Shown: in pieces, positions 12,351-55,143 of the stretch
How the letters are laid out: each line of letters starts with the position of its first letter
Position numbering within the stretch: the first letter of the stretch is position 1
DNA from: Sphingobium yanoikuyae
GTDB taxonomy: Bacteria > Pseudomonadota > Alphaproteobacteria > Sphingomonadales > Sphingomonadaceae
Direction of reading: 5' to 3'
Assembly: GCF_013001025.1 (NCBI RefSeq)
Contig: NZ_CP053021.1
Coordinates: forward strand, 2,501,001 to 2,565,000
DNA length: 64,000 nt
Made by a program: the position numbers and the translations under genes
The notes under the pieces: generated by a model
Told to the model about the DNA's origin: nothing
What the model saw: only the letters and a program-made list of their open reading frames with translations
The model's database searches: none

Positions 12351-12351
12351 G

Positions 12352-14724: not shown

Positions 14725-15335
14725 GCGTTTCTCGATCTGTCCCAGAGGTTGGGGATGACGCGGTTGGCGTATCCGGAGATGAAGCTTTTGGGTGTGCCGT
14801 CAGGGGCGAAGGTCGCGCGCTCGACCGCGCCGATATTGCCGCCATAGACATGGATGCTGACCGACGGCGCATCGGCCCGGCCGTTGGATACGCGGTGGAT
14901 GTCGCCGATCCGGGGCGACACGGCATCCACCTCGCCCTCGCGCAATATGTCCGTGCCCTGCGCGACCAGTCCGCCGCCGGGCAGCCGGTGGAACCGCTCG
15001 ACCTGCTCGCTGCCGCGCAGCACGCCGACCAGCCCCCAGACGCCATGGTCGTGGATCGGGGTCGACTGACCCGGCCCCCAGACGAAGCTGACGATGCTGA
15101 ACCGCTCGCGGCTGTCGCAATGGAGCAGATATTGCTGATAACGATCGGGGTCCGGCCGGGCATATTCGGGCGGCAGCCAGCCGTCGCGGGCGATCAGCCG
15201 GGCAAGCAGAGTGCGGCCACTTTCCAGCAGCGCCTGTTCGTCACGGGTGCAGGCGATCAGATCGGCCAAGGCGGTGACGAAACCGCGTAGGCGGCTGGTA
15301 TCGACCGGCCGGTCGATCGTGGTGACCGCGTTCAT
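14721..15335 (-). CDS. Cysteine dioxygenase-like cupin protein
   Basis: This 204-residue cytosolic cupin has the metal-binding motif STPIHDHGVWGLVGVLRG at about 91-108 (His-x-His) and the second-motif histidine in GDIHRVSNG. The length and layout match type I cysteine/thiol dioxygenases, which oxidise a thiol to a sulfinate with Fe(II) and O2. It overlaps both ssuB (upstream) and the rhodanese (downstream) by 4 bases, so the three are translated as a unit. The true substrate could be cysteine, another thiol or a persulfide; this cannot be told from sequence. Confidence 0.85.
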   Translation of the reverse strand: MNAVTTIDRPVDTSRLRGFVTALADLIACTRDEQALLESGRTLLARLIARDGWLPPEYARPDPDRYQQYLLHCDSRERFSIVSFVWGPGQSTPIHDHGVWGLVGVLRGSEQVERFHRLPGGGLVAQGTDILREGEVDAVSPRIGDIHRVSNGRADAPSVSIHVYGGNIGAVERATFAPDGTPKSFISGYANRVIPNLWDRSRNA

Positions 15336-16123: not shown

Positions 16124-16125
16124 GA

Positions 16126-16950
16126 TCAATTCTCCACTATGCTGGGGCGCCAGACGAGGGCGCGGGCTTCGAGGGACCGGACCAGCCAGTCGGCACCAAG
16201 GCCGAGAATGGCGTAGACCATGAGGCAGACGACGATGATGTCGGTGCGCATGAAGTCGCGGGCATTATTGATGAGATAGCCAAGCCCGGCCGAGGCGTTG
16301 ATCTGCTCCGCCACCACCAGCACCAGGATCGAGATGGACAGGGCGTAGCGCAGCCCGACCAGCAGCGAGGGCAAGGCGGCGGGCAACACGACGTGCCAGA
16401 CCTGTTCCCAGCGGCTGAGGCCGAAGCTCTTGGCGGCATCGAGCAGGCGCGGATCGACACCGCGAATGCCGGCATAAAGGTTGAGATAGACCGGGAAGAT
16501 GGTGCCGAAGGCAATGAGCGCGATCTTGGGCGTCTCGCCAATGCCGAACCAGACGATGAACAGCGGCGTCAGCGCCAGCGCGGGAATGGTCCGCTTGATC
16601 TGCATAAGCGGGTCGATCGCCAGTTCCGCGCCGCGCGACAGGCCCGCTGCCAGCCCCAGACCCAGACCCAGACCAACGCCGATCAGCAGGCCGACCGCGA
16701 CGCGGGCGAAGGAGACGAGCAGGTTGGAGGGCAGTTCGCCGCTCAGCACCATCTGGATCAGCGTGCCGATCACGGCGGAGGGCGCGGCCAGCGTGCGTTC
16801 GGGGATAAGGCCCGTGCGCGAGCCCAGTTCCCACAGCAAAAGTAACAGCAAAGGTGACAGCCATCGGCCGCCGAAGCGAGCGAGGGAGAAGCGGCGTCTG
16901 GCGCGCTGCGACGGCGTGTCGCCCCTTATTGCCAATGCGGTCATGTCCAT
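16126..16950 (-). CDS. ssuC: Sulfonate ABC transporter permease
   Basis: This 274-residue inner-membrane permease has about six helices. The EAA-type cytoplasmic loop is visible (LDAAKSFGLSRWEQVWHVVL, about 170-190), as is the ssuC/tauC pattern IPALALTPLFIVWFGIGETP. It is the first gene of the minus-strand operon ssuC-ssuB-dioxygenase-rhodanese-ssuD-ssuA-aldolase-redoxin. It is divergent from a LysR regulator, whose product probably controls it. Confidence 0.92.
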   Translation of the reverse strand: MDMTALAIRGDTPSQRARRRFSLARFGGRWLSPLLLLLLWELGSRTGLIPERTLAAPSAVIGTLIQMVLSGELPSNLLVSFARVAVGLLIGVGLGLGLGLAAGLSRGAELAIDPLMQIKRTIPALALTPLFIVWFGIGETPKIALIAFGTIFPVYLNLYAGIRGVDPRLLDAAKSFGLSRWEQVWHVVLPAALPSLLVGLRYALSISILVLVVAEQINASAGLGYLINNARDFMRTDIIVVCLMVYAILGLGADWLVRSLEARALVWRPSIVEN

Positions 16951-17210: not shown

Positions 17211-18047
17211 GTGCCGGTCAATCTGCCGACCAATCTCCTGCGCAGCTTTGTCGCGATCGTCGACACCGGGTCGATGCTCAATGCGTCGGAACAGGTGTTC
17301 GTCACCCAGTCCGCCCTCAGCCTGCAGATCAAGCGGCTGGAGGAACTGGTGCAGCAGTCGCTGTTCCTGCGCGAAGGCCGCCGCCTGCACCTGACCGCGG
17401 CGGGCGAGGTGCTGCTCGACTATGCGCGCCGGGTGCTGAGCCTGCATGACGAGGCGGTGGCGGCGGTCAGTGCCGGCCGCTTTGCCGGCCCGGCGCGGAT
17501 CGGCATGGTCCAGGATTTCGCCGACAGCCTGCTTTCGGGCCTGCTCTCCCGCTTTGCCGAGCTGCACCCGGACGCGCAAATCTATGCGCGGGTCGCGGGC
17601 ACGGCCGAGTTGCAGGCGCTGCTCGACCGGCGCGAGCTGGACATATTGCTGGGCTTTGCCGCGCCCAATGACGGCAGCGCGGTCACGGTGGCGCCGATGA
17701 GCTGGTATGGCACGGCCGAACTGGTTGATCGCGACACCATCCCGCTGGCGGTGCTGGAGGAGCCGTGCCGTTTCCGCGAGGCGGCGATCCGGGCGCTGGA
17801 GGATATGGGTCTGCAATGGCGGATCGCGGTCGAGACGCCCAACCTCGCCACGCTGCGCGCGGCAGTGGCCGCGGGGCTGGGCATCACCGCGCGGACCCAT
17901 TTGTTCCAGGATGACATGACAGTGCTGGAGCATGAGCGGCTGCCCACCCTACCCCGCGTCGCCGCGATCCTGCGCACCAGCGACAAGCTGGACCGCGCCG
18001 CGCATCGACTGGCAGAACTGGCGCGCGAGACAGTGACCGGGCTTTAA
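17211..18047 (+). CDS. LysR-family transcriptional regulator
   Basis: The 278-residue protein starts at GTG 17211, preceded by AGAAGGA. The N-terminal winged helix (about 5-65) shows LRSFVAIVDTGSMLNASEQV and TQSALSLQIKRLEELV, the LysR recognition helix. The C-terminal effector domain has FADSLLSGLLSRFAELHPD and LDILLGFA. It is divergent from the ssu operon, so it probably senses sulfur status or an organosulfur ligand and regulates ssuC onward. The recognition region alone does not distinguish it from general LysR proteins. Confidence 0.9.
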   Translation: MPVNLPTNLLRSFVAIVDTGSMLNASEQVFVTQSALSLQIKRLEELVQQSLFLREGRRLHLTAAGEVLLDYARRVLSLHDEAVAAVSAGRFAGPARIGMVQDFADSLLSGLLSRFAELHPDAQIYARVAGTAELQALLDRRELDILLGFAAPNDGSAVTVAPMSWYGTAELVDRDTIPLAVLEEPCRFREAAIRALEDMGLQWRIAVETPNLATLRAAVAAGLGITARTHLFQDDMTVLEHERLPTLPRVAAILRTSDKLDRAAHRLAELARETVTGL

Positions 18048-18065: not shown

Positions 18066-19010
18066 TTAGTACCCGCGCGCCGGATCGACGATGTCGGACG
18101 GTGCCTCGCCCCGAACGAAGCGGGTCAGATCGTCCTGGATCTTTTCCAGCAGGCGATGGCGCACCAGCTGGTAATTGCTTGAAATATGCGGGGTCAGCCG
18201 CACCTTGGGATGAGTGTAGAGGACATGCCCCTCCGGCAGCGGTTCGGGGTCGGTGACGTCCAGCGTCGCAAAGCCCAGCCGGCCATCATCCAGCGCCCGC
18301 ACCAAAGCCGCCTGATCGACCACCGATCCGCGTGCGACGTTGATGAGATGCGCGCCCGGCCGCACCCGCGCCAGCAGTGCATCGTCAACCAGATGGCGGG
18401 TCTGGGCAGTGGCGGGGACGGCGAGCAATATATGATCCGCCTCCTCCACCAAAGTCCCGACATCGCCGACCAGTTGCACGCCCGGCACGCTGGGTTGCGC
18501 GCCGGATCGCCGCACGCCGATCACCTGCGCGCCCAGCGCCAGGCCGCGTCGTGCGACCGCCGCGCCGATCGCGCCCATGCCGATGATGCCGATGGTCGTG
18601 CCCGACACCCGGCCCAGTTGCGCCGGCCCCCATTGTGCCCGCGAACGGACGGTGACGGCGTCCAGATTCTTGGCATGGGCATAGATGGCGGCGATCGCAT
18701 AATCGGCGATCTCCTCCGACGCGACGCCGCGGCCACAGGTGACGAGCGGCGCGTCAAGCAGCCAGTCGGGATAGAAATCGACCCCGACCGAAGCGCTGTA
18801 GACCCATTTGAGGCGCCCCGGCCAGGGTGCGGGACGACGCACCTCCGGCGCGCGCCAGGCCGGCGACGGGCGGATCAGCAATATATCGGCCTCGTCGGCG
18901 GCGCTCCAGGGCGCGTCCTCGGCAACGTCGATCAGCACGGGGGCGGACGGATGACGGGCCAGACTCCGGTTGAAATCCGGCTCCATCTGGCTGGCGATGA
19001 TCAGGGACAT
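18066..19010 (-). CDS. D-2-hydroxyacid dehydrogenase family protein (NAD-binding)
   Basis: The start at ATG 19010 follows GGGGAATTGAGCCC, 4 bases after the upstream stop. The 314-residue cytosolic oxidoreductase has the Rossmann motif TIGIIGMGAIGAAVARRGL (about 135-153) and VNVARG-type NVARGSVVDQ. The Arg/Glu/His catalytic set lies around NVARGS, DVTDPEPLPEGH and LTPHISS. It sits third in the minus operon after a lipoprotein binding protein and an SfnB-like flavoprotein. It may reduce or oxidise a hydroxyacid formed after sulfur removal; substrate unknown. Confidence 0.88.
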   Translation of the reverse strand: MSLIIASQMEPDFNRSLARHPSAPVLIDVAEDAPWSAADEADILLIRPSPAWRAPEVRRPAPWPGRLKWVYSASVGVDFYPDWLLDAPLVTCGRGVASEEIADYAIAAIYAHAKNLDAVTVRSRAQWGPAQLGRVSGTTIGIIGMGAIGAAVARRGLALGAQVIGVRRSGAQPSVPGVQLVGDVGTLVEEADHILLAVPATAQTRHLVDDALLARVRPGAHLINVARGSVVDQAALVRALDDGRLGFATLDVTDPEPLPEGHVLYTHPKVRLTPHISSNYQLVRHRLLEKIQDDLTRFVRGEAPSDIVDPARGY

Positions 19011-19014
19011 GGGC

Positions 19015-20190
19015 TCAATTCCCCAGCGCCGCGCGACCAGCGGCAATCAGGATGGTGTCGGTCTGCGGCGAATGGATACGGCTGCACAGCACGTCGCGAT
19101 AATGGCGCTCCAGCGGATTATGGCGGCTGATGCCGGGGTTGCCGGTCAGTTCCAGCCCGATCTCGACCGCGCGGATGGCGTTGGCGGTGGCGACATATTT
19201 GATCGCATTGGCCTCGACCGCCGGTGGCGGATCGCCTGCGTCGATCCGCGCGGCGGCGTCGCGCACCAGCGTCCGGTTGACCTGCAACAGCGCCTCGATC
19301 TCGCCGAACTTCTCCTGCACGCGCGGCAGGGTGGCAAGCGATGCGCCGAGGTTGCTCGGCACCCGATCGTTGAGATAGGCACGCAGCCAGTCGCGCGCGG
19401 CGCGCGCCACCCCGTCATAAATGACCGAGATGGAGAGCGCATTCCACAGCGTCTGGACCGGATCGGGCGCGCCCCATTCCTCCGGCCGGCGAATATCGAC
19501 CGCATGGTCGGCCGGCGTCGGCGTGTCGGTGAAATGGACGGCATGGCTGACCGTCGCGCGCATCCCCAGATGATCCCAGGCCGGCTCGATCTCCACCCCC
19601 GGACTGCCGGCGCGAACCAGGAAATTGCCGACGCGCGGGACATCCTCGTCGGTCTTGGCCCAGACCGAATACCAGTCGAGCCCGGTCGATCCAGTCGAAT
19701 AGATCTTCGTGCCGCTGATCGCCCAGCCATGGGCGGTGCGCCGCGCGATCGTGGCAGGTAGGCCGCCGCGCACGGGCGTGCCCAGTTCCGGTTCGACCCG
19801 CAGCCCGCCGATCAGCCCCCGGCCCGCCACCGCATCGCGCGCCAGCGTCTCATAGATGTCCGCCGGCCAGCCGCGCGCCCGGTTGGGCGTCGCATGATAA
19901 TGATAGGTCATGAACAGGATCAGCGCGGTCGAGGGATCGCCCTTCGCCACCGCCGCCAGCACCCGCAGCGCTTCGGAAACCGACGCGCCCCGCCCGCCAT
20001 GCGCGCGCGGCACGGTCAGCGCGATCAGGCCCTGTTGCGCCAATATGTCGAAATTGGCGCGGGGAAATTCGGCACTGCGGTCATATTGCTCCGCATTGGC
20101 CGCCAGCAAGCGGGTCAGCCGGTCGAGCTGGTCGGCGGGCACCGGCCCTTCGGGCGGCTGCGGCTGCACGGAAATTGCCTGGGTCGCCAT
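19015..20190 (-). CDS. Acyl-CoA-dehydrogenase-fold flavin monooxygenase, SfnB/DszC-like
   Basis: The real start is ATG 20190 (391 residues). Conserved features are LIALTVPRAHGGRGASVSEA (about 52-71), a flavin-contact stretch WAISGTKIYSTGST, and C-terminal helices with RDVLCSRIHSPQTDTI. Members of this family (DszC, SfnB) use reduced FMN to oxidise sulfur compounds, and the neighbouring sulfonate-type binding protein favours that over fatty-acid oxidation. The gene begins 4 bases after its upstream neighbour stops. Confidence 0.85.
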   Translation of the reverse strand: MATQAISVQPQPPEGPVPADQLDRLTRLLAANAEQYDRSAEFPRANFDILAQQGLIALTVPRAHGGRGASVSEALRVLAAVAKGDPSTALILFMTYHYHATPNRARGWPADIYETLARDAVAGRGLIGGLRVEPELGTPVRGGLPATIARRTAHGWAISGTKIYSTGSTGLDWYSVWAKTDEDVPRVGNFLVRAGSPGVEIEPAWDHLGMRATVSHAVHFTDTPTPADHAVDIRRPEEWGAPDPVQTLWNALSISVIYDGVARAARDWLRAYLNDRVPSNLGASLATLPRVQEKFGEIEALLQVNRTLVRDAAARIDAGDPPPAVEANAIKYVATANAIRAVEIGLELTGNPGISRHNPLERHYRDVLCSRIHSPQTDTILIAAGRAALGN

Positions 20191-20194
20191 GATA

Positions 20195-21169
20195 TCAGCC
20201 TCTCTTGGGAATGGCGTCATTGAAGCGGGCGTCCCATAGCGGGCGGACGTCCACCCGCTTGGGCACCAGCCCGGCCTTGAAGAAGACATCGGCGACCTGC
20301 TGCTGCGATCCGATCGCCTCGGGCGTGACCGGGCGCAGTTCATAGGTCGCGCTCTTACGGCGGAACTGGTCGAGCACATAGTCGCGCGGCACGCCGATAT
20401 CCTGGGCGACGATGCCGGCCCATTCGTCCTGATGTGCCGCCGCCCAGCCAAAGCCCTGTTGCACCAGCGCCAGATATTCGCGGATGATCGCCGCCTTGTC
20501 GGGATCGGCCAGCGCATCGACATGGGCGGAGACGAGATAGTTGCCTGACAGGATACCATAAGCGGTGCGCAAGATCCGCGCACCCTCTGTCGCGATCGCC
20601 CGCTGGATCGGGAAGCCATAGATCGCCCAGGCATCCAGCGCCCCTTGCGAAAAAGCGGCGGCGCCATCGGACACGCCCATCGCGACCGGAGTGATGTCGT
20701 CCCAGCTCAGGCCGACCTCCTCCAGCATCCGGATCAGGAAATATTGGGCGGTGGTGGCGCGGACATAGCCGACGCGCTTGCCCTTGAGGTCGGCGATGGA
20801 GCGCGCCTTCGATCCCTTCGGCACCAGCACGATCTGGTTATTGACGTCGCCATGGGCGACCGCGATCTGGCGGAAGCTCTGGATGGTCGAAGCGGCGGCG
20901 AAGATCGGCGGGATCTCGCTCATCCCGCCATAGTCGAGCGATCCACCATTGAGCGCCTCGACCACGAGGTGGCCGGACTGGAACTCGCTATAGACAAGGT
21001 CAAAGCCCTTGGGCTGGATGCCCGCCGCCTTGAACAGCAGGCGGGTGTCGCCATCGCCCTTGCCGGTGATCGACACCCGCAGTTTCGGCCGGCCCTTGCC
21101 AGCGCTGCCACAGGCGGTGAGCAGCAGGCTGCCCGCCGCCGCGCCCAGCAGATTGCGTCTGGACAACAT
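20195..21169 (-). CDS. ABC substrate-binding lipoprotein, SsuA/TauA/NMT1 class
   Basis: The ATG at 21169 gives a 324-residue product with twin-arginine-like SRRNLLGAAAGSLLLTAC, where the final Cys is a lipobox. The mature part has the NMT1-like blocks GGSLDYGGMSEIPPIFAA, HGDVNNQIVLVPKGS and LKGKRVGYVRATTAQYFLIR. The MSEIPP...GDVNN pair is shared with the binding protein at 45998 but not with SsuA at 11397, so these two form a subfamily. No permease or ATPase accompanies it; use of SsuBC is inference. Confidence 0.87.
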   Translation of the reverse strand: MLSRRNLLGAAAGSLLLTACGSAGKGRPKLRVSITGKGDGDTRLLFKAAGIQPKGFDLVYSEFQSGHLVVEALNGGSLDYGGMSEIPPIFAAASTIQSFRQIAVAHGDVNNQIVLVPKGSKARSIADLKGKRVGYVRATTAQYFLIRMLEEVGLSWDDITPVAMGVSDGAAAFSQGALDAWAIYGFPIQRAIATEGARILRTAYGILSGNYLVSAHVDALADPDKAAIIREYLALVQQGFGWAAAHQDEWAGIVAQDIGVPRDYVLDQFRRKSATYELRPVTPEAIGSQQQVADVFFKAGLVPKRVDVRPLWDARFNDAIPKRG

Positions 21170-21170
21170 C

Positions 21171-21314
21171 TCAGCGACCGCCGCTCGTTTCTCGCACACT
21201 TGCTGCGCTGGGATCACGTTCGAACAGGATTACCGTCGGATCGCGTAGCAATTCGCGCCGGGCCGCCGCCCTGAACCGGGCCAGCCTATCCGTCCACCGC
21301 TGCGTCCACGCCAT
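21171..21314 (-). CDS. Small basic ORF (47 aa) coupled to the binding-protein gene
   Basis: An ATG at 21314 opens a 47-residue reading frame, MAWTQRWTDRLARFRAAA through ETSGGR. Its TGA stop lies 1 base before the ATG of the downstream lipoprotein gene. A GAGGA ribosome site lies about 10 bases upstream. It is rich in Arg with one amphipathic helix and no signal peptide. It may be a leader peptide or small regulator. Coding is supported only by position and coupling. Confidence 0.4.
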   Translation of the reverse strand: MAWTQRWTDRLARFRAAARRELLRDPTVILFERDPSAASVRETSGGR

Positions 21315-45090: not shown

Positions 45091-45152
45091 ATACATATCA
45101 CGGGACTTATCTAAAAAACATCACCAGCCACGTTTGCCAACGAGAGCGGTGA

Positions 45153-45998
45153 ATGACGATAATATCGCAAAGTCACGCGGACGAATTCTCGCATCCAGCG
45201 CTACGGCGTCCCCGCATCCATGACGTTCCCCGCGATGGCGATGCGCCACGGCTGCATGCGGAAGCGGCCCGGCGCACAGTTCGGGACGAGCGGCTGCACC
45301 GCAAGCAGCAACTGGCCGCGTCGCTGCGCCTGCTGGCCCAGCATGGCGTCGAGCCTGGCCTGGCCGGCCATCTGAGCGCCCGCGACCCTGAACATGTGGA
45401 CCATTTCTGGGTCAATCCGGTCGGCGTCCCCTTTTCCCATATCCGGGTATCGGACCTGCTGCGGATCGACAGCGACGGGCGGGTCGTCGAGGGCGACGGG
45501 CCAGTCAACATCTCCGGCATCCCCTATCATCATGCGGTCCAGCGTGCCCGGCCGGACGTCGTCGGGATCGTCCATGCCCATAGTTTCCACGCCAAGACCT
45601 GGTCCGCCTTCCGGCAACCGGTCGAGCCGATCATCGCCGACCTCGCCGCCTTCCATGAGGATCAGGTGGTCTTCGTGCCCGACCGGTCGTTGGATGCCGC
45701 TACGGGGCGTGATGCCGTCGCGCAGCAGTTCGTCCAGTCACTGGGTGACCGCAACATCCTGCTCTGGGCCAATCATGGCCACTGGACCGTCGGCAACAGC
45801 GTCGAAAGCGCGGCATGGCGCTTCATTGCCTATGAAAGCGCGGCCCGCGTGCAACTGACCGCACGGGCCGCCGGAACAGCGATCGTCGATCCGCCGACCC
45901 AGCGTCCCTCTCCCGACCAGCGGGAAGGATGGGCTTGGCTCAGCTTCCTGCCCTATTGGGACGAGATCGTCCGCGCGCAGCCCGATCTGCTCGACTGA
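45153..45998 (+). CDS. Class II aldolase/adducin family protein
   Basis: This 281-residue cytosolic protein has VEPGLAGHLSARDPEHVDHF, NPVGVPFSHIRVSDLL, metal-site histidines in GIVHAHSFHAK (about 140) and NHGHWTVGNSVES (about 207), and YHHAVQRARPDV. It is the family counterpart of the aldolase at 10588 but diverged. It shares a TGATG junction with the binding-protein gene, so the two are coupled. Perhaps it breaks a C-C bond in the organosulfur compound after import; the substrate is unknown. Confidence 0.85.
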   Translation: MTIISQSHADEFSHPALRRPRIHDVPRDGDAPRLHAEAARRTVRDERLHRKQQLAASLRLLAQHGVEPGLAGHLSARDPEHVDHFWVNPVGVPFSHIRVSDLLRIDSDGRVVEGDGPVNISGIPYHHAVQRARPDVVGIVHAHSFHAKTWSAFRQPVEPIIADLAAFHEDQVVFVPDRSLDAATGRDAVAQQFVQSLGDRNILLWANHGHWTVGNSVESAAWRFIAYESAARVQLTARAAGTAIVDPPTQRPSPDQREGWAWLSFLPYWDEIVRAQPDLLD

Positions 45999-46960
45999 TG
46001 CCCCGTCAGCTTTATTCCCGGCGGGCGCTGCTAGCCGGCGCCGGCGCCCTGACGCTGGCCGGATGCGGCGCGGCCACGGAACGGGCATTGTCCGACGTGA
46101 CCCTGAGCGTCTGGCGCTACAAGACGACGGCCGGCAATTTCATGGCGGCGGCAGGACAGGCCGACACGCCATACCAGGTCCGCTATGTCGACCTGCCCGG
46201 CGGCCCGCTGGTGCTCAATGCCTATGCCGCCGGTGCGCTCGACTATGCCTATATGAGCGAAATTCCACCGGCTTTCGCGCTGCAGTCGGGCACGCCGCTC
46301 AGGCTGATCGCCACCCACCAGGGCGATGTGAACAATAGCGGCGTGCTGGTGGTGAAGGGATCAAGCGCACGGCAATTTCCCGACCTTCGCGGACGCACCA
46401 TCGCCTACACGCCCAACACCAACAATCATTATTATCTGCTCAAACTGCTCGAAGCGCATGATCTGCGCCTGTCCGACGTGCAGGCCGTCGGCCTGCCCGC
46501 CAACGACGCCAATGCCGCTTTCACGCGTGGTCATGTCGAAGCGATCGTCACCGGCGGCATTTCCGCCCTGTTGACCGAAAGCCTGCTCGGCGGACGCTGG
46601 ATCGTCCGATCGGTCGCCGGTCTCTATTCGGGCAATTTCTGCATCTCTGCCCATCCGACCGCGCTGGCCGATCCGCTCAAGCGAGCGGCGATCCGCGACT
46701 ATCTGCGCCGGGAACAGGCGACCTGGCAATGGATCGACCGAAACCCGGAACGCTGGGCGGCGCTGTCGGCAACGCTCAGTAGCCAGCCCGCCGCCCTGTT
46801 CCAGCGCCTGGCCCGCGAGGCAAGCCGGCCTGCCCTGATCGTCCCGCCCGCCAAGGCCGCCATCGCAAGCCTGCAGCATGTCGCCGACGATCTCGCCCGC
46901 TTCGCGCTGGTGCGGGATCGCCACGACCTGTCCGCGCTGTGGGAACCGGACCTGATCTGA
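45998..46960 (+). CDS. ABC substrate-binding lipoprotein, SsuA/TauA/NMT1 class
   Basis: The ATG at 45998 gives 320 residues with SRRALLAGAGALTLAGCG, a twin-arginine-like signal ending in a lipobox Cys. NMT1-type blocks are AAGALDYAYMSEIPPAFALQ, THQGDVNNSGVLVVKGS and DLRGRTIAYTPNTNNHYYLL. The MSEIPP and GDVNN motifs are shared with the 20195 protein. No permease/ATPase genes are present in this locus. It likely uses SsuBC or an unlinked transporter. Confidence 0.86.
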   Translation: MPRQLYSRRALLAGAGALTLAGCGAATERALSDVTLSVWRYKTTAGNFMAAAGQADTPYQVRYVDLPGGPLVLNAYAAGALDYAYMSEIPPAFALQSGTPLRLIATHQGDVNNSGVLVVKGSSARQFPDLRGRTIAYTPNTNNHYYLLKLLEAHDLRLSDVQAVGLPANDANAAFTRGHVEAIVTGGISALLTESLLGGRWIVRSVAGLYSGNFCISAHPTALADPLKRAAIRDYLRREQATWQWIDRNPERWAALSATLSSQPAALFQRLAREASRPALIVPPAKAAIASLQHVADDLARFALVRDRHDLSALWEPDLI

Positions 46961-47001
46961 TCGGGCCGACCGTCACGAACATCTTAAAAAAGGGGGAATT
47001 T

Positions 47002-49500
47002 ATGCGACATGAGATCAGCCGGCCGGCCTTTGGCGTCCTGCGCCGGCTATGGCTTTCGACGGTTACCCTGGCCGCGCTCGGGGTCGGTCCGTCGGCGCTT
47101 GCGCAGGAACAACCTGTCCCAGCCCCAACCGAAGCCAAGGTCGAGGGGACGATCGTCGTCGTCGGCAACCGCAGCCGCGCGACCACCGCGCTGGAAAGCC
47201 CCGTGCCGATCAATGTGATCGACGACAGCCAGTTGACGACATTGGGAGCAAACAGTTCGCTGCGCGACGCACTGGGCGTGTTGCTGCCTAGTTTCAACTC
47301 GCTGACCGTCAGTTCCTCGTCCTGGAACAGCGTAGCGCGTCCAGCCGGCTTGCGCGGCCTGGGCGGGTCGCATGTGCTGGTGCTGGTGAATGGCAAGCGG
47401 CGCCACAATAGCTCGCTGCTCAACCTGTCGACCGGTAGCGTCGACCAGGGCGCCAATTCGGTCGATATCGACCTGATCCCGGCGGCAGCGATCAAGCGGA
47501 TCGAGGTGCTGCGCGACGGCGCGGCCGCCCAATATGGATCGGACGCGATCGCCGGCGTCATCAACATCGTGCTCAAGGATGACGACCATGGCGGCACGCT
47601 GACGGTGAACGGCGGCAAGCGCTACAGCTACCGCGGCAATTCCGACGGGCGTAATATCGAGGCAGGCGGCAATATCGGTTTCAAGCTGGGGCCGGACGGG
47701 TTCGTCAACATTGCCGCCAGCGCCAAGGACAATAATCATGCCCGCCGCGCCATTCCCGCGACCGGCGCCTTCTATTATCCGCTGGCCAATGGGCAGCCCG
47801 ACCCGCGCGAGAGCCGGGACAAGACGGTGTTTACCGGCGGCCTGCCCGACCTGCGCGCGCTGACGATCCTCTATAATGCAGAACTGCCGCTTTCGCCGGC
47901 CGCAACCCTCTATTCCTCCTCGACCTGGTCGACGCGATCCGCGATCATCGGGCAGAATTTCCGGCGCCCCAATTCCACCAATGCGGTGCTGTCCATCTAT
48001 CCCGATGGCTATGCGCCCAACTACACGCTGGACGAGAATGATTTCCAGATCCTCGCCGGCATCAAGGGCGAAGCGGGGGGCTGGAGCTGGGATCTGTCCA
48101 GCACCTATGGCGAGAACCGGTCGAAGAATGGCTCTACGGAGAGCCTCAACGCCTCCTTGGGCGATGCAAGTCCAACCGAATTCTGGACCTTCACTGCGAA
48201 ATTCGCCCAGTGGACCAACAATCTGGATATTTCCAAGGGGGTGGATATCGGTCTGGCCGAACCGCTGAAAATCTCCTTCGGTGCCGAACATCGCTATGAG
48301 CGGTTCCAGACCATCGCCGGCGACCCGGCAGCCTATGCCAACGGCCTTTATCAATATCCCGCCGGTACGCCGCTGGCCGGCCGCTATGCCACCATCGGCG
48401 CGCAGGGGGCGATCGTCCTCACCCCCGACGATGCGGCCAAGCTCAGCCGCAACAGCTATGCCGCCTATGTCGATCTGGGCGTCAATCCGGTGCCGCGCTG
48501 GTTCATCGGCCTGGCTGGCCGGGCCGAACATTATGACGACAGCGCCGGCAACACGCTGAACGCAAAGTTCACCACCCGCTACGACTTCACCGACAATTTC
48601 GCCATTCGCGGCACGATCAGCAACGGCTTCCGCGCGCCCTCGCTGGCCCAGTCCGCCTTCGCCCAGACGTCGAACCAATATACCACCGTCAACGGCGTCC
48701 AGACCTTCATCACCGCAAAGTCGGTGCGGCCGGGCACGCCGATCGGCGACGCGCTGGGCGCCAAAGCGCTGACCCCGGAAAAATCCTTCAACCTCAGCGC
48801 CGGCTTCAGCTACAAGATCGGCACCCGGTTCAACCTGTCGGTCGACGCCTATCAGATCAAGCTGGACGATCGCATCGCCCAGACCGGCTATCTGACCGGC
48901 GCCGGCGTCAGCGCCATCCTGGTCGCCAACGGCTTCGATCCCAATTATTCGGTGCGCTATTTCGCCAATGCGATCGACACCCGGACCCGCGGCGTCGAAG
49001 CCGTCGCCAACTATCTCCAGCCACTGGGCGAGGACAAGTCGATCCGCTTCACCATCGGCTATAATTACAACAAGACCAAGATCACCCATGTCTCCGACAA
49101 TCCGCCGGAACTGGCCGCGCTCAACCTCACCTTGTTCGACCGTCAGGCGCAGGGCTATATCGCCGGCAACTTGCCCAAGTCGAAACTGATCCTGGGCCAG
49201 GATCTGAAGCTCGGCACTCTCCAGCTCAACCTGCGCGAGACCCGCTATGCCAAGGTCGCCTTCCTCGGCACGACGGCCGCGACCGACCAGTTCTACGGCG
49301 CCAAATGGATCGCCGACATCGACCTGTCCTTCCAGGCGACGCGCAACATCAATGTCGCGATCGGCGCGAACAATTTCTTCGACACCTATCCCGACAAGAA
49401 CATACTGGCGGATACCAACGGCTTCCCGCCCTATCCGGCCCAGTCCCCGTTCGGCTTCTATGGCGGCTATTATTATGGCCGCCTGGCCTTCAGCTTCTGA
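47002..49500 (+). CDS. TonB-dependent receptor of the second sulfur locus
   Basis: Start ATG 47002 follows AAAAAGGGGG. The 832-residue protein has a signal peptide ending SALAQEQ, TonB-box-like TIVVVGNRSRA, plug motifs VLLPSFNSLTVSSSSWNSVA, GLRGLGGSHVLVLVNGKRRH and VLRDGAAAQYGSDAIAGVIN, and a barrel ending RLAFSF. The plug style differs from both pectin receptors. It lies between the binding protein and the monooxygenase genes, so a sulfur- or aromatic-containing substrate is inferred. Confidence 0.9.
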   Translation: MRHEISRPAFGVLRRLWLSTVTLAALGVGPSALAQEQPVPAPTEAKVEGTIVVVGNRSRATTALESPVPINVIDDSQLTTLGANSSLRDALGVLLPSFNSLTVSSSSWNSVARPAGLRGLGGSHVLVLVNGKRRHNSSLLNLSTGSVDQGANSVDIDLIPAAAIKRIEVLRDGAAAQYGSDAIAGVINIVLKDDDHGGTLTVNGGKRYSYRGNSDGRNIEAGGNIGFKLGPDGFVNIAASAKDNNHARRAIPATGAFYYPLANGQPDPRESRDKTVFTGGLPDLRALTILYNAELPLSPAATLYSSSTWSTRSAIIGQNFRRPNSTNAVLSIYPDGYAPNYTLDENDFQILAGIKGEAGGWSWDLSSTYGENRSKNGSTESLNASLGDASPTEFWTFTAKFAQWTNNLDISKGVDIGLAEPLKISFGAEHRYERFQTIAGDPAAYANGLYQYPAGTPLAGRYATIGAQGAIVLTPDDAAKLSRNSYAAYVDLGVNPVPRWFIGLAGRAEHYDDSAGNTLNAKFTTRYDFTDNFAIRGTISNGFRAPSLAQSAFAQTSNQYTTVNGVQTFITAKSVRPGTPIGDALGAKALTPEKSFNLSAGFSYKIGTRFNLSVDAYQIKLDDRIAQTGYLTGAGVSAILVANGFDPNYSVRYFANAIDTRTRGVEAVANYLQPLGEDKSIRFTIGYNYNKTKITHVSDNPPELAALNLTLFDRQAQGYIAGNLPKSKLILGQDLKLGTLQLNLRETRYAKVAFLGTTAATDQFYGAKWIADIDLSFQATRNINVAIGANNFFDTYPDKNILADTNGFPPYPAQSPFGFYGGYYYGRLAFSF

Positions 49501-49513
49501 TGGAGACGCAGGC

Positions 49514-50878
49514 ATGACCCACCCCTCCGGCACGCTCAAGCTCGGCGCTTTCCTGTCGGGGCACGGCTCGCACAATGCGAGCTGGCGCCTGCCGGAGGCG
49601 GATGTCGATGCCTCGCGCAGCTTCGCGCCCTATGCCCGGGTCGCCCGGAAACTGGAACAGGGCCTGTTCGACGCGATCTTCCTCAACGACAGCGTCGCCA
49701 TTCCCGATCTCGACGCCGATTCACTGGCGCGCACGTCGCAGGGCATGCGCTGGGATCCGTTGACGCTGCTGCCCGCCCTGGCTGTTGTCACCAGCCGGAT
49801 CGGCCTCATCAGCACGGCCAACACCACCTATAACGAACCCTATACGCTCGCCCGCCGGCTCGCCTCGCTCGACCATCTGAGCGCAGGGCGCGCCGGCTGG
49901 AACCTGGTCACCTCGCTCGGCGGTGGCGAGAATTTCAACCGCGAGGATCATGTCCTGCACGCCCAGCGCTATCAGCGGGCCGAGGAGTTTTTCGATGTCA
50001 TCACCGGCCTGTGGGACAGTTGGGAAGATGACGCCTTCGTCCAGGACAAGCAGAGCGGCATCTGGGCCGATCCCGCCAAGCTTCACCGGCTGGATCACAA
50101 GGGCGCGCATTTTTCGGTGCAGGGACCGCTCAACGCGGCGCGCCCGGTCCAGGGCTATCCCGTGATCGCCCAGGCCGGATCATCCGATGACGGCCGCGAA
50201 CTGGCGGCGCGGACGGCGGAAATCATCTTCACCGCCGCCCAGACGATCGACGAGGCGCTGGCCTTCGGCGCGGACATCACCGCCCGCCTCGGCCGTTATG
50301 GCCGCAAGCGCAGCGACGTCCGCATCCTGCCCGGCATATCGGTCTATGTCGGCCAGGATGCCGAGGAAGCCCGCGCCCGCTACGAAGCGCTTCAGGATCT
50401 GCTCGATCCGGTTTTCGCGCTCAAGGGCATATCCCGCTTCGTCAATATCGGCATCGACCTGTGGACTCTGCCGCTGGACGAACCGGTCGTACTGCCCGCC
50501 GCAATCCCCGTCACCAACACGCACAAGAGCCGCCAGCAACTGGTGATCGACCTGATCCGCCGCGAACAGCCGACGGTGCGGCAATTGCTGCGCAAGATGG
50601 TCGCCGGCGGGCATCGCATCCTGTTCGGCAGTGCGCGCGACATTGCCGATGATTTTGAGCATTGGCTCCATGCCGGCGCGGCCGACGGGTTCAACATCAT
50701 GTTCCCCGACCTGCATGGATCGGTCGACCGTTTCGTTGAGGAGGTTGTCCCCGAACTGCAGCGGCGCGGTGTGTTCCGCACCGCCTATGAGGGCGCCACG
50801 CTGCGCGACAATCTGGGCCTCGATCGCCCGGACAACCGCTTCACCCGTCCCCCGCCAGTGGCGGCTGTCAGGAACTGA
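49514..50878 (+). CDS. FMN-dependent LLM-class monooxygenase, NtaA/SnaA/DszA family
   Basis: Start ATG 49514, 13 bases after the TBDR stop with GGAG upstream; 454 residues. Diagnostic parts are LKLGAFLSGHGSHNASWRLP, LDHLSAGRAGWNLVTSLGGG, GLWDSWEDDAFVQDKQSG and RRGVFRTAYEGATLRDNLGL. It is a clear paralogue of the 8449 enzyme (shared GLWDSWED and LDHKG segments). It probably oxidatively cleaves a C-S or C-N bond of the imported compound and needs FMNH2 supplied from elsewhere. Confidence 0.9.
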   Translation: MTHPSGTLKLGAFLSGHGSHNASWRLPEADVDASRSFAPYARVARKLEQGLFDAIFLNDSVAIPDLDADSLARTSQGMRWDPLTLLPALAVVTSRIGLISTANTTYNEPYTLARRLASLDHLSAGRAGWNLVTSLGGGENFNREDHVLHAQRYQRAEEFFDVITGLWDSWEDDAFVQDKQSGIWADPAKLHRLDHKGAHFSVQGPLNAARPVQGYPVIAQAGSSDDGRELAARTAEIIFTAAQTIDEALAFGADITARLGRYGRKRSDVRILPGISVYVGQDAEEARARYEALQDLLDPVFALKGISRFVNIGIDLWTLPLDEPVVLPAAIPVTNTHKSRQQLVIDLIRREQPTVRQLLRKMVAGGHRILFGSARDIADDFEHWLHAGAADGFNIMFPDLHGSVDRFVEEVVPELQRRGVFRTAYEGATLRDNLGLDRPDNRFTRPPPVAAVRN

Positions 50879-50919
50879 GCGGCGCTTCATTCCCAAAATC
50901 TTAGAACAAGGAACCGGAC

Positions 50920-51600
50920 ATGTCCCAGCCCCATGACCCAATCGATCAACATTGGGCCGATCTTCTCTCGCCCGGCCGAAGGCAATTGCTGCGCGCAGGC
51001 GGACTGGCTGCTGCCGGTGGCCTTATCGGCGCGCCTGCCTTTGCCGCCGCTCTTCCGTCCTCTCCCGCCGCCATCGCCGCCCATACGGGCAAGAGCCCCT
51101 GGGGCTATGCCACCGCCACGGAACCGACGCCCCGTCCCCTGGCGGTGCGCCCCGGCGAGGAGCATGGTCTGCCCGATCGGCCCCGCGCCTATACCGATAT
51201 CAAGAGCTATCATGCCCATATCTATTTCGACGAGGATAGTTACGAGAAGGCAGTCCGCATCCGGCAATGGACGGCGGAACGCTTTGCGGTGGAGTTGGGC
51301 AACTGGAATGCGAAGCCGCGCGGCCCGCATGTCACGCCATCCTTCTATTTCGGCTTCGGCACCGACCTGCAGCCGCTGATCCTGCCCTGGCTCCAGCTCA
51401 ACAGCCTGGGCCTGACCATCCTTGTCCATCCCAATACCGACGATCCGCGCGCCGACCACCTCCATTATGCCCTGTGGGTGAACCGGTCGCAGCCGGTCAA
51501 CGCCTATGGCATGAAGAAGCCGGACCTTGCGGCTGGCGAGCCGGCCGTGGAACAAATCTATCCCAATACCCGGCCGACGGTCGCGATCGAGCGTAGCTGA
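50920..51600 (+). CDS. DOPA 4,5-dioxygenase-family protein with Tat-like signal
   Basis: The 226-residue protein has an N-terminal GRRQLLRAGGLAAAGGLIG followed by APAFAA, a twin-arginine-like export signal. The dioxygenase domain (about 95-215) has SYHAHIYFDED, PRGPHVTPSFYFGFG, ILVHPNTDDPRADHLHYALW; the histidines HAH, GPH and DHLHYALW fit the metal site of this extradiol family. Export of a ring-cleaving dioxygenase would be unusual. It follows the monooxygenase and overlaps the SDR gene by 1 base, suggesting a catechol-like intermediate. Confidence 0.82.
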   Translation: MSQPHDPIDQHWADLLSPGRRQLLRAGGLAAAGGLIGAPAFAAALPSSPAAIAAHTGKSPWGYATATEPTPRPLAVRPGEEHGLPDRPRAYTDIKSYHAHIYFDEDSYEKAVRIRQWTAERFAVELGNWNAKPRGPHVTPSFYFGFGTDLQPLILPWLQLNSLGLTILVHPNTDDPRADHLHYALWVNRSQPVNAYGMKKPDLAAGEPAVEQIYPNTRPTVAIERS

Positions 51601-52325
51601 TGGGCGCTGCGAGGGAACAAGCGGGCCGGCATTATGCCATCGTCGGCGGCAGCAGCGGCATCGGCCTTGCCGTGGCGAAATTGCTGGTCGCGCGCGGCGA
51701 CAGAGTGCTGATCGGCGGGCGATCGCCCGACCGATTGTCCAGCGCCATCGCGACATTGGGGGAGCAGGCCTTCGCCCGCTCCATCGACACCGGCGATCGC
51801 GCATCGATCGCGGCCTTCTTCAACGATGTGCCGGCGCTCGACGGACTATTCACCCCGGCCGCCAGCTATCGCACCGGGGCCTTTCGTGACGGCGATGTTG
51901 ACACAAGCGAAGCGCTGTTCGACGCCAAATTCTGGGGGCAATATTGGACCGTCCACGCCGCCCTTCCGATGTTGAAACAGACAGCATCGATCCTGCTGAT
52001 GTCGGGTGCGGCCTCGGTCCGACCGATCGGCGCGCCGGCCTATGCCGCCTGCAATGCAGCGCTGGAGGGATTGGCGCGCGGCCTGGCGTTCGAATTGTCC
52101 CCGATCCGGGTCAATTGCCTGTCTCCCGGCACCACCGACAGCGACCTGTGGCGGGGTCGCCCCGCGCCGCAGCGTGAGACCGCCTACGCCCATTGGAACG
52201 GACTTTGCCTGACCGGACGCCCCGCCCAAGTCGAGGAACAGGCGCAGGCGGCCCTGTTCCTGCTCGACAATGGCAATATGACCGGCGCCACCTTGTTCTG
52301 CGATGGCGGCTATAGTTTCCGCTAG
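51600..52325 (+). CDS. Short-chain dehydrogenase/reductase
   Basis: This 241-residue enzyme has the nucleotide-binding motif YAIVGGSSGIGLAVAKLL (about 12-29) and GRSPDRL. The active-site serine lies in LMSGAASVRP and the tyrosine in AYAACNAALEGLARGL, where the usual lysine four residues on is Asn; some SDR subfamilies carry this change. It ends MTGATLFCDGGYSFR. It is coupled to the dioxygenase gene. Its stop codon shares a CTAG with that of the convergent ferredoxin gene. Confidence 0.88.
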   Translation: MGAAREQAGRHYAIVGGSSGIGLAVAKLLVARGDRVLIGGRSPDRLSSAIATLGEQAFARSIDTGDRASIAAFFNDVPALDGLFTPAASYRTGAFRDGDVDTSEALFDAKFWGQYWTVHAALPMLKQTASILLMSGAASVRPIGAPAYAACNAALEGLARGLAFELSPIRVNCLSPGTTDSDLWRGRPAPQRETAYAHWNGLCLTGRPAQVEEQAQAALFLLDNGNMTGATLFCDGGYSFR

Positions 52326-52714
52326 GCAATGTCCGTGTCCGCCCATCGCGCGGCATAACGGCGGGCGGCGATCTCCGCCCCTTCGCGCAACAAGGGGCCG
52401 AGTTGCCAGAAGTCCTGTAGATGCGGTGCCTCTGGCGGTGCATCGCGATCCCAGCCATAATCATGGCGCAGCCGCCCGACTTGCCCCATGGCCAGCGCCT
52501 CAACGGCGGACAGGCTTGGCGCGCCCTCCTGCTCGGGCGCGACATAGAGGGCGTCGGCCGGGCAATAGAGTTCGCACATGAAACAGGTCTGGCACTGATC
52601 CAGCCGTGCGATCAGCGGCACGCCATCGGTTCCGGCGTCGAAGACATGGGTGGGACAGGCCACAACGCAGGCCTGGCAACCGGTGCAGCGCTCCTCGAAT
52701 ATCTGTGCGATCAT
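52322..52714 (-). CDS. 2[4Fe-4S] ferredoxin-type protein
   Basis: Start ATG 52714 overlaps the flavoprotein stop. The 130-residue protein has two clusters, RCTGCQACVVACP and QCQTCFMCELYCP (CxxCxxCxxxC each), then a unique C-terminal tail (GRLRHDYGWDRDAPPEAPHL). The cluster part resembles AprB, and the partner gene resembles AprA/fumarate reductase flavoproteins. It likely passes electrons to or from that flavoprotein. It is transcribed towards the SDR gene. Confidence 0.85.
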   Translation of the reverse strand: MIAQIFEERCTGCQACVVACPTHVFDAGTDGVPLIARLDQCQTCFMCELYCPADALYVAPEQEGAPSLSAVEALAMGQVGRLRHDYGWDRDAPPEAPHLQDFWQLGPLLREGAEIAARRYAARWADTDIA

Positions 52715-54306
52715 GCGGCGATCTCCTGCGCTGCGGGCCGTTCCGGACGGGTCCAGACGTGATCCAGCCCTGCGACCAGCAGCCGGCTCTGCTGCGCCGG
52801 ATCGGTCCCCGGCCGATCGATGCGCATATGCATGCCGCGACTTTCGTCGCGCGCCAGGGCCGCTGCCACGATCCAGCCCGCACACGCCGCCATTGCCGCA
52901 TGTTCGCGCAAGGCCACCGCCGCCAGCCCCTCCGCACGGCCATGATCCGCGATCGTGCGCCAGACGGCCTCGACCGCGTCCCGGTGCCGCTCAAGCTTGC
53001 CCGCACTGCGCCAGAGCGCTGCATCATAGCCGATGGTCGCGGCCTGGATGATCGGCAGCCCCTCACGAACGTCGGGAAGCCGTGCGGTGGAAGCGGGCCG
53101 CAGGCCGACCGTGCCGGCCGCCAGCACCGGCGTATCGCCTCGTCGTCCGGTCCGACGTGCATGGGCCGCCGCAGCGGCGCCGGCGATCCGGCCGGAGGTC
53201 AGCGCCCAGGCGGCATTTTGCGCGCCGCCGCCGCTAGTGGCGCCGGCGACCAGTTCGCGCGTGGCGCTGTCACCCGCCGCATAGAGATTGGCGACGCTGG
53301 TCTCGCAGCCGTCGCCGACGATCTGCACCCCGCCGGTGCCGCGGACCGTGCCTTCGCCGAATAGTCGCACCGGGAAGCGATCGCGGAACAGATCGATCCG
53401 CTTGTGCTCGAACGGCGCGAGCGAGGCGGGCTGGATGCGGCGCAGGCCTTGTTTCAGAGCGTCCGGCGCGTCGGACAGGTCGGCCAGTACCGGTCCAGCC
53501 TCCAGCGCGCGGGCCAGGGCACGCAGATGCGCCGCCTCCCCGCTCATCGGTGGCGGCACATCCAGTTCGCGGCCTTCGGTATCGAAGAAGCGGGCTGCGA
53601 AATAGGGCAGCGTCCGGGTCGAATTCCAGGCCGGCGAGAGGGAATAGGATACGGAAAATTCCATGCCCGACAGCACAGCGCCGACTTCCGCCGCCATCAG
53701 CAATCCATCGCCGCTATTGCCATGGCTGCCGATCAGCCCGGATCGGAAGGCGCAGCCGCCGGTCGCAATCACGACCGCACCCGCGCGCACTGTCCAGGCC
53801 TGTTGCTTCAGCCGCGCATAGCCGGCCGCCCCCGCCACCGATCCATCGGCATGCAGCAGCAGTTCCAGTGCGGGATGATGATCCAATATGGTGACACCGG
53901 CATACTGCGCAAAGCGACGCAGGGCACGCATATATTCCGGCCCGCGCACGCCGGAGTAGAAAGTGCCGCCCTTGCCGTCGCCGGCAAAAGGATAATAGCC
54001 CGCCAGCTGCGGCAGGGCACGCCAGGTTTCATCGATGATACGCGCCATCCAGTCCCGTTCGGCCAGGCCAAAGCTGCGGGCGTAACGCTCCTCGATCGCG
54101 GCCTCGCGCCGTCCCGGTTCCGGCGCGACCCACCAATGATTGGGACCACCGGTCGCCGTGACGCCGCTCGTCCCGACAAAGCCCTTGTCCACCAGCAGCA
54201 CGTCGGCGCCCGCCTGTGCCGCCATGATCGCTGCCCAGCAGGCCGCCATGCCGCCGCCGATGATCAGGACATCGGCGCTGCGCGTGATCGGCGCGGCTTC
54301 GCTCAT
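52711..54306 (-). CDS. FAD-dependent flavoprotein, fumarate-reductase/AprA-like
   Basis: This 531-residue protein has an N-terminal FAD site VLIIGGGMAACWAAIMAAQA, VVIATGGCAFRSG, SHGNSGDGLLMAAEVGA and the second dinucleotide region VANLYAAGDSATRELVAGAT. The C-terminal helical part (REHAAMAACAG) fits this superfamily. It pairs by 4-base overlap with a 2[4Fe-4S] ferredoxin. The arrangement resembles adenylylsulfate reductase AprBA, but the ferredoxin tail and context suggest a different redox reaction. Confidence 0.87.
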   Translation of the reverse strand: MSEAAPITRSADVLIIGGGMAACWAAIMAAQAGADVLLVDKGFVGTSGVTATGGPNHWWVAPEPGRREAAIEERYARSFGLAERDWMARIIDETWRALPQLAGYYPFAGDGKGGTFYSGVRGPEYMRALRRFAQYAGVTILDHHPALELLLHADGSVAGAAGYARLKQQAWTVRAGAVVIATGGCAFRSGLIGSHGNSGDGLLMAAEVGAVLSGMEFSVSYSLSPAWNSTRTLPYFAARFFDTEGRELDVPPPMSGEAAHLRALARALEAGPVLADLSDAPDALKQGLRRIQPASLAPFEHKRIDLFRDRFPVRLFGEGTVRGTGGVQIVGDGCETSVANLYAAGDSATRELVAGATSGGGAQNAAWALTSGRIAGAAAAAHARRTGRRGDTPVLAAGTVGLRPASTARLPDVREGLPIIQAATIGYDAALWRSAGKLERHRDAVEAVWRTIADHGRAEGLAAVALREHAAMAACAGWIVAAALARDESRGMHMRIDRPGTDPAQQSRLLVAGLDHVWTRPERPAAQEIAA

Positions 54307-54760
54307 TCAGCGGCAACAGCGGCAGGCGAAGCTACAATGGCGCTGTAGCGGTTTTCCGGCACCGGCAGGCCAAGATGGCCGCGCAGCGTGTCATGCGCTT
54401 ATTCGGTGCGGAACAGACCCCGCGCTTGCAGGATCGGCACCACCTCCTCACGGAAGCGGCGGAACGGTTCGGGCGAACCGGCGAATTGCGAGCGCCAATC
54501 ACCGAAGCGACCGACGGCCAGGCGCAGTGTCACACCCGCCTCCTGCGCTGTCTGGATGATCCGCTTGGCCTGCCCCATATAGCTGTGGTCGAGCGCTTCG
54601 CGACCAGCGTCTTCGATCGCGCGAGCCTTCTCGCTGTCGGCAATGGCTTCGGGTCGGCGAGGATATTGATAGGCTCGGGATCGAGCCAACTCGACTGGTT
54701 GCCACCCGCCCCCTCCAGGATCGCGCCCTGATGCAGTTGGCTGTGCGTTTCGTCGGCCAT
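54303..54760 (-). pseudogene. Decayed LLM-class flavin monooxygenase
   Basis: Pieces of an NtaA/DszA-type enzyme remain: an N-terminus (HQGAILEGAGGNQSSWLDP), a middle piece (GVTLRLAVGRFGDWRSQF) in another frame, and the C-terminus RARGLFRTE-like ILQARGLFRTE, then TAA where Tyr is expected, then DTLRGHLGLPVPENRYSA. Hundreds of codons are missing, there is a frameshift, and there is an in-frame stop. The original stop overlapped the flavoprotein start, so it belonged to that operon. Confidence 0.85.
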
Positions 54761-55143
54761 CGTCGCCTCCCTTGAATGAGACGAGCGTAACCGTGCGGAC
54801 CCCACCGGCATAACGAGAGCTTCTCATAGGCTGTTGTGAAAGGCTGATGAACAGGTTGTTGCAGAAGAACGCAACGAAAAGGCCAAGTTCATTAGTTACG
54901 GATTACCTCCGAAAATGCTGCTCAAATGACGGTGATTTTCTAAAAAGCCAGTTCCTGTCGACAGTTTAGGAACGCGTCCCGTCCGGTCAGCGTAATAGAC
55001 AACCCGCGAGGAAATGGCTGATATTGCTCTGCTCCGACGCGCAAACAGACGCTTTGCAACATCCTGCAAAGAAGCTGAAATATCTCCAAGGTTGCTAACG
55101 CGACCTATTCGCATTAGCTGGGTCCCGAATTTAGGGGATCATC
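54761..55143. other. Intergenic region before the second iron cassette
   Basis: About 380 bases without a supported gene. It contains the Fur-like repeat at 55096-55118 close to the receptor start; otherwise nothing recognised. Confidence 0.6.
55096..55118. promoter_or_regulatory. Fur-like inverted repeat upstream of siderophore receptor
   Basis: CTAACGCG-ACCTATT-CGCATTAG has 8-bp arms with one mismatch and lies 26 bases before the receptor start. CGCATT/AATGCG-type arms also occur in the palindrome at 851-866. Iron control is inferred. Confidence 0.45.

Follow-up and report, generated by a model that had tools for sequence, protein, structure and literature searches.

Organic compounds account for more than 95% of the sulfur in soil (PMC4267179), and the asfRABC cluster, which comprises an electron chain of reductase and ferredoxin, a binding protein, an ATP-binding cassette (ABC) transporter and a LysR regulator, is required besides ssu for the use of aromatic sulfonates (PMC4267179). 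The AsfA/AsfB reductase-ferredoxin pair has also been located on the CHR2 replicon of Cupriavidus metallidurans (PMC2864759), and in those parts of the asf literature on which we draw the oxygenase working with AsfAB is left unnamed. Here we describe a locus in a 64,000-nucleotide stretch (the window) of the 5.9 Mb genome (G000) of Sphingobium yanoikuyae (contig NZ_CP053021.1, positions 2,501,001 to 2,565,000), in which a flavoprotein/ferredoxin pair of this kind faces an operon of uptake and oxidation genes, and which we consider quite probably to be an organosulfur-scavenging system of the asf/ssu kind, with flavin C-S monooxygenases.

The plus-strand operon (45153-52325; intergenic gaps of -1 to 41 bases) encodes a class II aldolase (ALD), a binding lipoprotein (SBP), a TonB-dependent receptor (TBDR), an NtaA-type flavin monooxygenase (LLM), a DOPA-dioxygenase-family protein (DODA) and a short-chain dehydrogenase/reductase (SDR). 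Facing SDR on the minus strand are the ferredoxin (FDX) and flavoprotein (FLAV) genes, which overlap by 4 bases, and then a decayed second monooxygenase gene, llm2. This gene list had been read correctly by the initial annotation; all of the genes it named except llm2 are open reading frames matching their own families in Pfam, and llm2 is indeed decayed. LLM matches Bac_luciferase (Pfam, 1.8e-39) and TIGR03860 (NCBIfam, 526 bits, above the cut-off of 279.7), while ALD matches Aldolase_II (Pfam, 1e-40) and PRK06208 (NCBIfam, 265 bits, cut-off 255), its closest solved structures being the NovR decarboxylase 9ryg and 4xxf. SBP matches NMT1 (Pfam, 8e-11) and its closest solved structures are 2x26 and 3e4r, both of which are termed sulfonate-binding SsuA in PMC5623697. 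SDR scored below the cut-off of PRK07041 (184 against 257). The gene set is more than chance, because much of its order is kept in other genomes.

Searches of 94 Sphingobium genomes with DODA and LLM (LLM threshold 1e-130) found DODA in five and LLM matches also in five, four of them orthologues of at least 87% identity (the window's own included) and one (G515) of 51%. All four genomes with an LLM orthologue fell among the five with DODA, for which the chance expectation is about 2 in a million, a figure that is not a clean probability because the genomes are related. The initial annotation had suggested a check on whether the constituent genes are co-conserved elsewhere, and ALD-SBP-TBDR-LLM was contiguous, with its order kept, in all four (the window, S. 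scionense DSM 19371 (L002), L195 and L196; 76-97% identity). Window positions 40920-52325 align with S. scionense at 92.7% DNA identity; this locus shares its coordinates with the match in G518, which was taken to be the same species. In G552 and G511 DODA lies away from LLM, in a one-strand row DODA-llm2-FLAV-FDX (L186, L187); a RidA-family gene stands immediately before DODA in G552, so that DODA need not be the first gene, and an SDR (52%) faces LLM in G511. DODA directly follows a TonB receptor gene in the fifth DODA genome (G533). As DODA sits by the LLM operon in some genomes and by llm2-FLAV-FDX in G552 and G511, the genes fall into two modules, ALD-SBP-TBDR-LLM and llm2-asfAB, either of which can have DODA next to it.

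FLAV and FDX resemble, at the sequence level, the AsfA/AsfB pair of the arylsulfonate cluster asfRABC. A single FLAV match was found on the CHR2 replicon of C. metallidurans CH34 (42% identity over 92%; range 42-44%) with a ferredoxin homologue adjoining, and although the record carries no gene names, we infer from the replicon, the single place and the adjoining ferredoxin that it is AsfA. The label “AprA-like” given initially fits less well than AsfA-like: the AprA model NF005331 gave 38 bits against a cut-off of 557, on which dissimilatory adenosine phosphosulfate reductase was rejected, and among the best 25 of 46 NCBIfam models none reached its cut-off with FLAV. FLAV homologues occurred in 60 plasmid records, and loci were fetched from 16 of these, L112, L113, L115 and L116 having been picked via DNA or aldolase matches and L129 via a paper. 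An FDX homologue adjoined FLAV in 16 of the 16 loci (12/12 without the first four named), and an NtaA-type monooxygenase lay at most 8 kb away in nine (5/12 without those four). Among 39 hand-picked 20-kb Sphingomonadaceae regions used as a control, an NtaA-type monooxygenase was present in one, and an SsuA-like protein or matching permease in none, a comparison that is imperfect in setting 20-kb genome pieces from one family against plasmid loci from several phyla. A class-wide FLAV search at 1e-70 returned only the window's own genome among 289, with at most five candidates scored per genome, which makes its negatives weak. A LysR regulator, an ABC ATPase and a permease are encoded in the same window (15.3-18.0 kb), about 34-37 kb from FLAV/FDX.

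The llm2 gene is intact in S. scionense (452 amino acids) and in the S. yanoikuyae plasmid pKN1 (about 450 amino acids), and the protein scores higher against the nitrilotriacetate (NTA) monooxygenase entry 3sdo (454 bits) than against YtnJ (424 bits). The window's remnant aligns with the S. scionense DNA at its two ends only (54300-54474 and 54675-54852, in differing frames), the middle measuring about 0.2 kb as against about 1.1 kb, so that some 0.9 kb is gone; it extends to about 54852, past the end at 54760 given initially for the locus, and has no Pfam match and matches TIGR03860 only below threshold (19 bits). In S. scionense, three genes absent from the window lie between SDR and FDX and encode a thioredoxin-like protein, a hexapeptide protein of the serine-acetyltransferase type and a putative sulfate exporter; the same three genes (93-98% identity; annotated as thioredoxin, EpsC and sulfate exporter) are found beside FDX-FLAV-llm2 in pKN1. 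Because this gene order is common to S. scionense and pKN1, loss by deletion in the window lineage appears the simplest account. Serine acetyltransferase catalyses the entry step to cysteine, and the sulfur context is therefore close; two other (serine) acetyltransferase matches are present elsewhere in the window genome. As llm2 is destroyed, the asfAB-llm2 branch is probably idle in this strain, or is served by another oxygenase.

DODA matched PF08883 (Pfam) at 1.9e-24, with a score of 86.3 against a gathering score of 25. The best 80 of 295 relatives were used as loci, some of them flanked by less than 10 kb, and a twin arginine was found in the N-terminal region of all 81 sequences (80 loci plus the window); judged by eye from this motif, the export signal proposed initially for this protein would be of the twin-arginine translocation (Tat) type. 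Histidines 98, 100, 137, 170 and 180, the predicted metal ligands of family PF08883, are conserved in 99-100% of the 81 sequences and invariant in a 34-sequence alignment. An AlphaFold model had a mean predicted local distance difference test score of 67.8, with domain residues 179-198 poorly placed, and matched 2peb with a TM score of 0.85 by target length. The family is mostly proteobacterial, although Sulfopaludibacter, Granulicella, Eremiobacteraeota and Planctomycetota each appear in the title of one record, and in 19 of the 80 loci, chiefly from Janthinobacterium and relatives, a TonB receptor gene lies directly upstream on the same strand. Organosulfur gene classes were found near DODA in six of the 80 loci, all alphaproteobacterial (6/21), and a universal link between DODA and sulfur genes was rejected, the excess over the 39 hand-picked regions being non-significant (two-sided p = 0.42 for at least one class and 0.17 for at least two). 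In the 21 alphaproteobacterial loci the excess over these regions was significant (one-sided p = 0.006 and 0.004 respectively), in a subset picked post hoc, sorted by record title, and including two strains of one species (L035 and L041) as well as S. scionense (L002), which had helped to define the cluster. In Sphingomonas azotifigens (L076) DODA stands between thioredoxin-like and serine-acetyltransferase homologues, and in Caulobacter BK020 (L071) it stands amid island genes. Since organosulfur genes are nearby in just 6/80 loci, DODA is a non-obligatory part of the organosulfur system, and as its sulfur-gene company is restricted to few alphaproteobacterial loci, it has the look of a separate family, recruited into sulfur islands by some alphaproteobacteria. 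We know of no role for an exported DODA-type dioxygenase in asf/ssu-type systems, and a small set of word-based searches of open-licence PMC articles found no paper treating either this set of genes or an exported DODA.

Beyond Sphingobium, a Novosphingobium locus (L130) has one contiguous cluster, llm2-FLAV-FDX-SBP-LLM1-SsuD-rhodanese-cysteine dioxygenase-ATPase-permease-LysR (LLM1 being the monooxygenase of the second island described below), and ALD homologues of 43-47% identity lie amid organosulfur genes in Nostoc (L115), R. lusitanum (L116), R. gilardii (L117), Azospirillum (L118) and two Sphingomonadaceae (L139, L140). On a Roseomonas mucosa plasmid, homologues of LLM (61%) and ALD (58%) adjoin, the only such case outside Sphingobium among the loci inspected. 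Across several lineages the genes of the locus or their homologues co-occur with genes for sulfonate-type ABC transporters, rhodanese, cysteine dioxygenase, serine acetyltransferase and AsfAB, which supports uptake and oxidative C-S cleavage for sulfur, as was first proposed for this locus; the accompanying statement that no described pathway has this set is not supported in that form, as the flavoprotein/ferredoxin pair and its frequent partners resemble asfRABC/ssu, which is described for aromatic sulfonates. The organosulfur island of the Nostoc edaphicum plasmid concerned, pNe_5, includes ALD, SsuD, an SsuA-like protein, a pair resembling AsfAB and several flavin monooxygenases.

A second, larger organosulfur island (island A) was observed at window positions 6134-21217 (Table 1). 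LLM is about 46% identical to the LLM1 of this island, and these were the two full-length NtaA-type matches in a search of the genome with LLM, the only match outside the window being weak (two pieces, at 759 kb, 7e-4). The second SsuA-like lipoprotein of island A is 37% identical to SBP and falls just under the TIGR01728 cut-off (162.2 against 163.5), and its acyl-CoA-dehydrogenase-fold protein scored 109 with the SfnB model, against a cut-off of 431. Between the two sulfur blocks, positions 21439-44979 look like a plant-glycan (rhamnogalacturonan-type) utilisation locus, with DUF2264, DUF4861, GH88, KduI, GH2 beta-galactosidase, DUF6250, PcRGLX-like, two large TonB receptor, major facilitator superfamily and GntR genes. 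A FhuA/FoxA-like siderophore receptor gene and then an esterase-family gene lie at 55144-58223, and the sole tRNA gene in the window, for tRNA-Met, is at 61878-61954 (ARAGORN).

Table 1. Coordinates of the features of the locus and of island A, in window positions.
Feature	Position	Strand	Description
ALD	45153..45998	+	class II aldolase/adducin family, PRK06208 subfamily (retro-aldolase or decarboxylase)
SBP	45998..46960 (ATG at 45998)	+	lipoprotein, SsuA/NMT1-like binding protein
TBDR	47002..49500	+	TonB-dependent outer-membrane receptor; barrel 2e-29, plug 2e-18 (Pfam)
LLM	49514..50878	+	NtaA/DmoA-family FMN-dependent monooxygenase
DODA	50920..51600	+	DOPA 4,5-dioxygenase-family protein, putative Tat-type signal
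SDR	51600..52325	+	short-chain dehydrogenase/reductase; adh_short_C2 4e-32 (Pfam)
Alignment break against S. scionense	52326..52351	.	3' end of FDX
FDX	52322..52714	-	2x[4Fe-4S] ferredoxin, AsfB-like; Fer4 families (Pfam)
FLAV	52711..54306	-	FAD flavoprotein, AsfA-like; FAD_binding_2 2e-16 (Pfam)
llm2 remnant	54300..54852	-	internally deleted, frame-disrupted second NtaA-type monooxygenase
Island A TonB-dependent receptor	6134..8335	+	
Island A LLM1	8449..9786	+	NtaA-type monooxygenase; closest solved relative YtnJ, 530 bits
Island A AhpC/TSA peroxiredoxin-like	9842..10549	-	
Island A second class II aldolase	10588..11379	-	PRK07044
Island A SsuA-family binding protein	11397..12428	-	TIGR01728 180.1, above cut-off 163.5
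Island A SsuD-like monooxygenase	12352..13440	-	under SsuD TIGR03565 cut-off, 223.9 against 518.2
Island A rhodanese	13462..14724	-	three matched domains
Island A cysteine dioxygenase-like	14721..15335	-	
Island A ABC ATPase + SsuC/TauC-like permease	15332..16950	-	permease under equivalog cut-offs
Island A LysR regulator	17211..18047	+	
Island A D-2-hydroxyacid dehydrogenase, acyl-CoA-dehydrogenase-fold protein, second SsuA-like lipoprotein	18066..21217	-	

If the locus is an organosulfur-scavenging system, TBDR would carry an organosulfur compound through the outer membrane and SBP would deliver it to an ABC importer, possibly the one whose ATPase/permease pair is encoded in island A (15.3-17.0 kb). 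LLM, using FMNH2, would then cleave the C-S bond, ALD and SDR would process the residual carbon skeleton, and the released sulfur would go to cysteine, while the AsfA/AsfB-like proteins would supply electrons to llm2, the second oxygenase; expression of the whole may be regulated by sulfur. Aromatic or alkyl sulfonates are favoured as the substrate because of the AsfAB and SsuA-like company, with thioethers as the main alternative. DODA, if Tat-exported, would be a periplasmic enzyme that perhaps opens or trims a catechol-like substrate ahead of uptake. A more specific version, which we regard as rather unlikely, is that periplasmic DODA cleaves the ring of a sulfur-bearing catechol (such as one derived from sulfonated humic or lignin material) and that the open-chain sulfonate is imported via the SsuA-like lipoprotein and an ABC transporter for flavin-dependent C-S cleavage; if true, sulfur would be won from aromatic sulfonates by a route that opens the ring first.

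Several observations weigh against an organosulfur system at this locus. The partner oxygenase of asfAB is decayed and the thioredoxin-EpsC-sulfate exporter set of cysteine/sulfur genes is absent here, SBP falls below the cut-off of the SsuA family model TIGR01728 (83.4 against 163.5), and none of the organosulfur gene classes was found at 74 of the 80 DODA loci. Seven of the 16 FLAV loci have no NtaA-type monooxygenase inside 8 kb, and in some of them the flavoprotein keeps other company, such as a P450 (L133) or peptide or sugar ABC genes (L135, L138). Two of four wide-flanked Sphingomonadaceae ALD homologues are without an island: nothing of it was found at L141, and at L142 no more than a hydroxyacid-dehydrogenase-like gene and a distant receptor match. 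In 23 further LLM matches from Alphaproteobacteria (49-54% identity), ALD was never beside LLM (flanks of at most 1.5 kb, at most four candidates scored per genome), and a general LLM-ALD pairing across the Alphaproteobacteria was therefore rejected.

The alternative which survives best, and which we consider possible if unlikely, is salvage of thioethers or cysteine conjugates, where YtnJ/CmoJ-like action would fall on S-substituted cysteines or peptides rather than on sulfonates and ALD and SDR would take the released aldehyde. YtnJ, which we assume to be CmoJ, is the best solved relative of LLM (344 bits, against 262 for DszA) as well as of LLM1. According to PMC10863075, CmoJ is a monooxygenase that cleaves the C-S bond of S-alkylcysteine sulfoxides. 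L195 has an M19 dipeptidase gene next to its ALD operon, pKN1 has a membrane dipeptidase gene, and the Roseomonas LLM-ALD pair has an M28 peptidase and a peptide ABC importer nearby, all of which fit with such salvage. However, llm2 is nearer to the NTA monooxygenase than to YtnJ, the AsfAB-, SsuA-, TauD- and SsuD-like partners suggest oxidised sulfur, and TIGR03860 covers many substrates.

Catabolism of aromatic carbon, in which DODA would open a ring, ALD and SDR would lead the products into central metabolism and sulfur would be incidental, comes near to the full pathway of the initial annotation and seems improbable to us. Sphingomonads degrade aromatics, and a DODA, an aldolase and an SDR are enzyme types of ring cleavage, but no further ring-cleavage gene was found among the genes scanned (41.5-58.2 kb), the partner genes are sulfur genes, and DODA is probably apart from the cytoplasmic enzymes because of the twin-arginine motif in 81/81 sequences. 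It is similarly improbable that rearrangement has brought together two unrelated neighbours, an operon for transport and monooxygenation and the decaying remnant of asfAB, with no common function in this strain, for while the halves are separate in G552 and G511 and the window has a dead llm2 and lacks the intervening genes, the halves stand together in S. scionense, DODA belongs to the ALD operon in some genomes but lies by llm2-asfAB in others, and both halves hold organosulfur-type genes.

On the organosulfur-scavenging reading, the locus would represent a system disrupted in this strain but intact in a near relative. The DODA-llm2-asfA-asfB row in two Sphingobium genomes, together with the NtaA-type monooxygenases near nine of the 16 asfAB-like pairs, offers a concrete candidate for the AsfAB oxygenase, and the conserved dioxygenase family with its Tat-type signal, for which we know of no role, poses a second testable question. 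The parts are mostly those of a known kind of system, the exported dioxygenase being the one without a place there that is known to us. As in asfRABC of Pseudomonas putida S-313 and the AsfA/AsfB of C. metallidurans, a flavoprotein and a ferredoxin form a pair, and relatives of FLAV/FDX are often found with a binding protein, an ABC transporter or LysR, but the present locus adds NtaA-type monooxygenases, a TonB receptor and a Tat-type-signal dioxygenase, has only 42-44% identity to that pair and has lost its partner oxygenase to decay. The SsuA-like binding proteins, SsuC/TauC-like permease and SsuD-like monooxygenase of island A are like those of the ssu alkanesulfonate system, although the SsuD-like and permease proteins score under the equivalog cut-offs, and at the locus itself SBP is a lipoprotein in an operon without a permease or ATPase gene. 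LLM is a clear member (526 against 280 bits) of the NtaA/DmoA family of C-S or C-N monooxygenases (YtnJ/CmoJ, DszA, DmoA, NtaA), yet it shares only some 46% identity with LLM1 of its own genome. DODA has the domain, fold and conserved histidines of PF08883 (solved as 2peb and 2nyh), whereas these solved relatives are short, at 115-122 residues, and DODA carries an extra N-terminal region with the conserved twin arginine.

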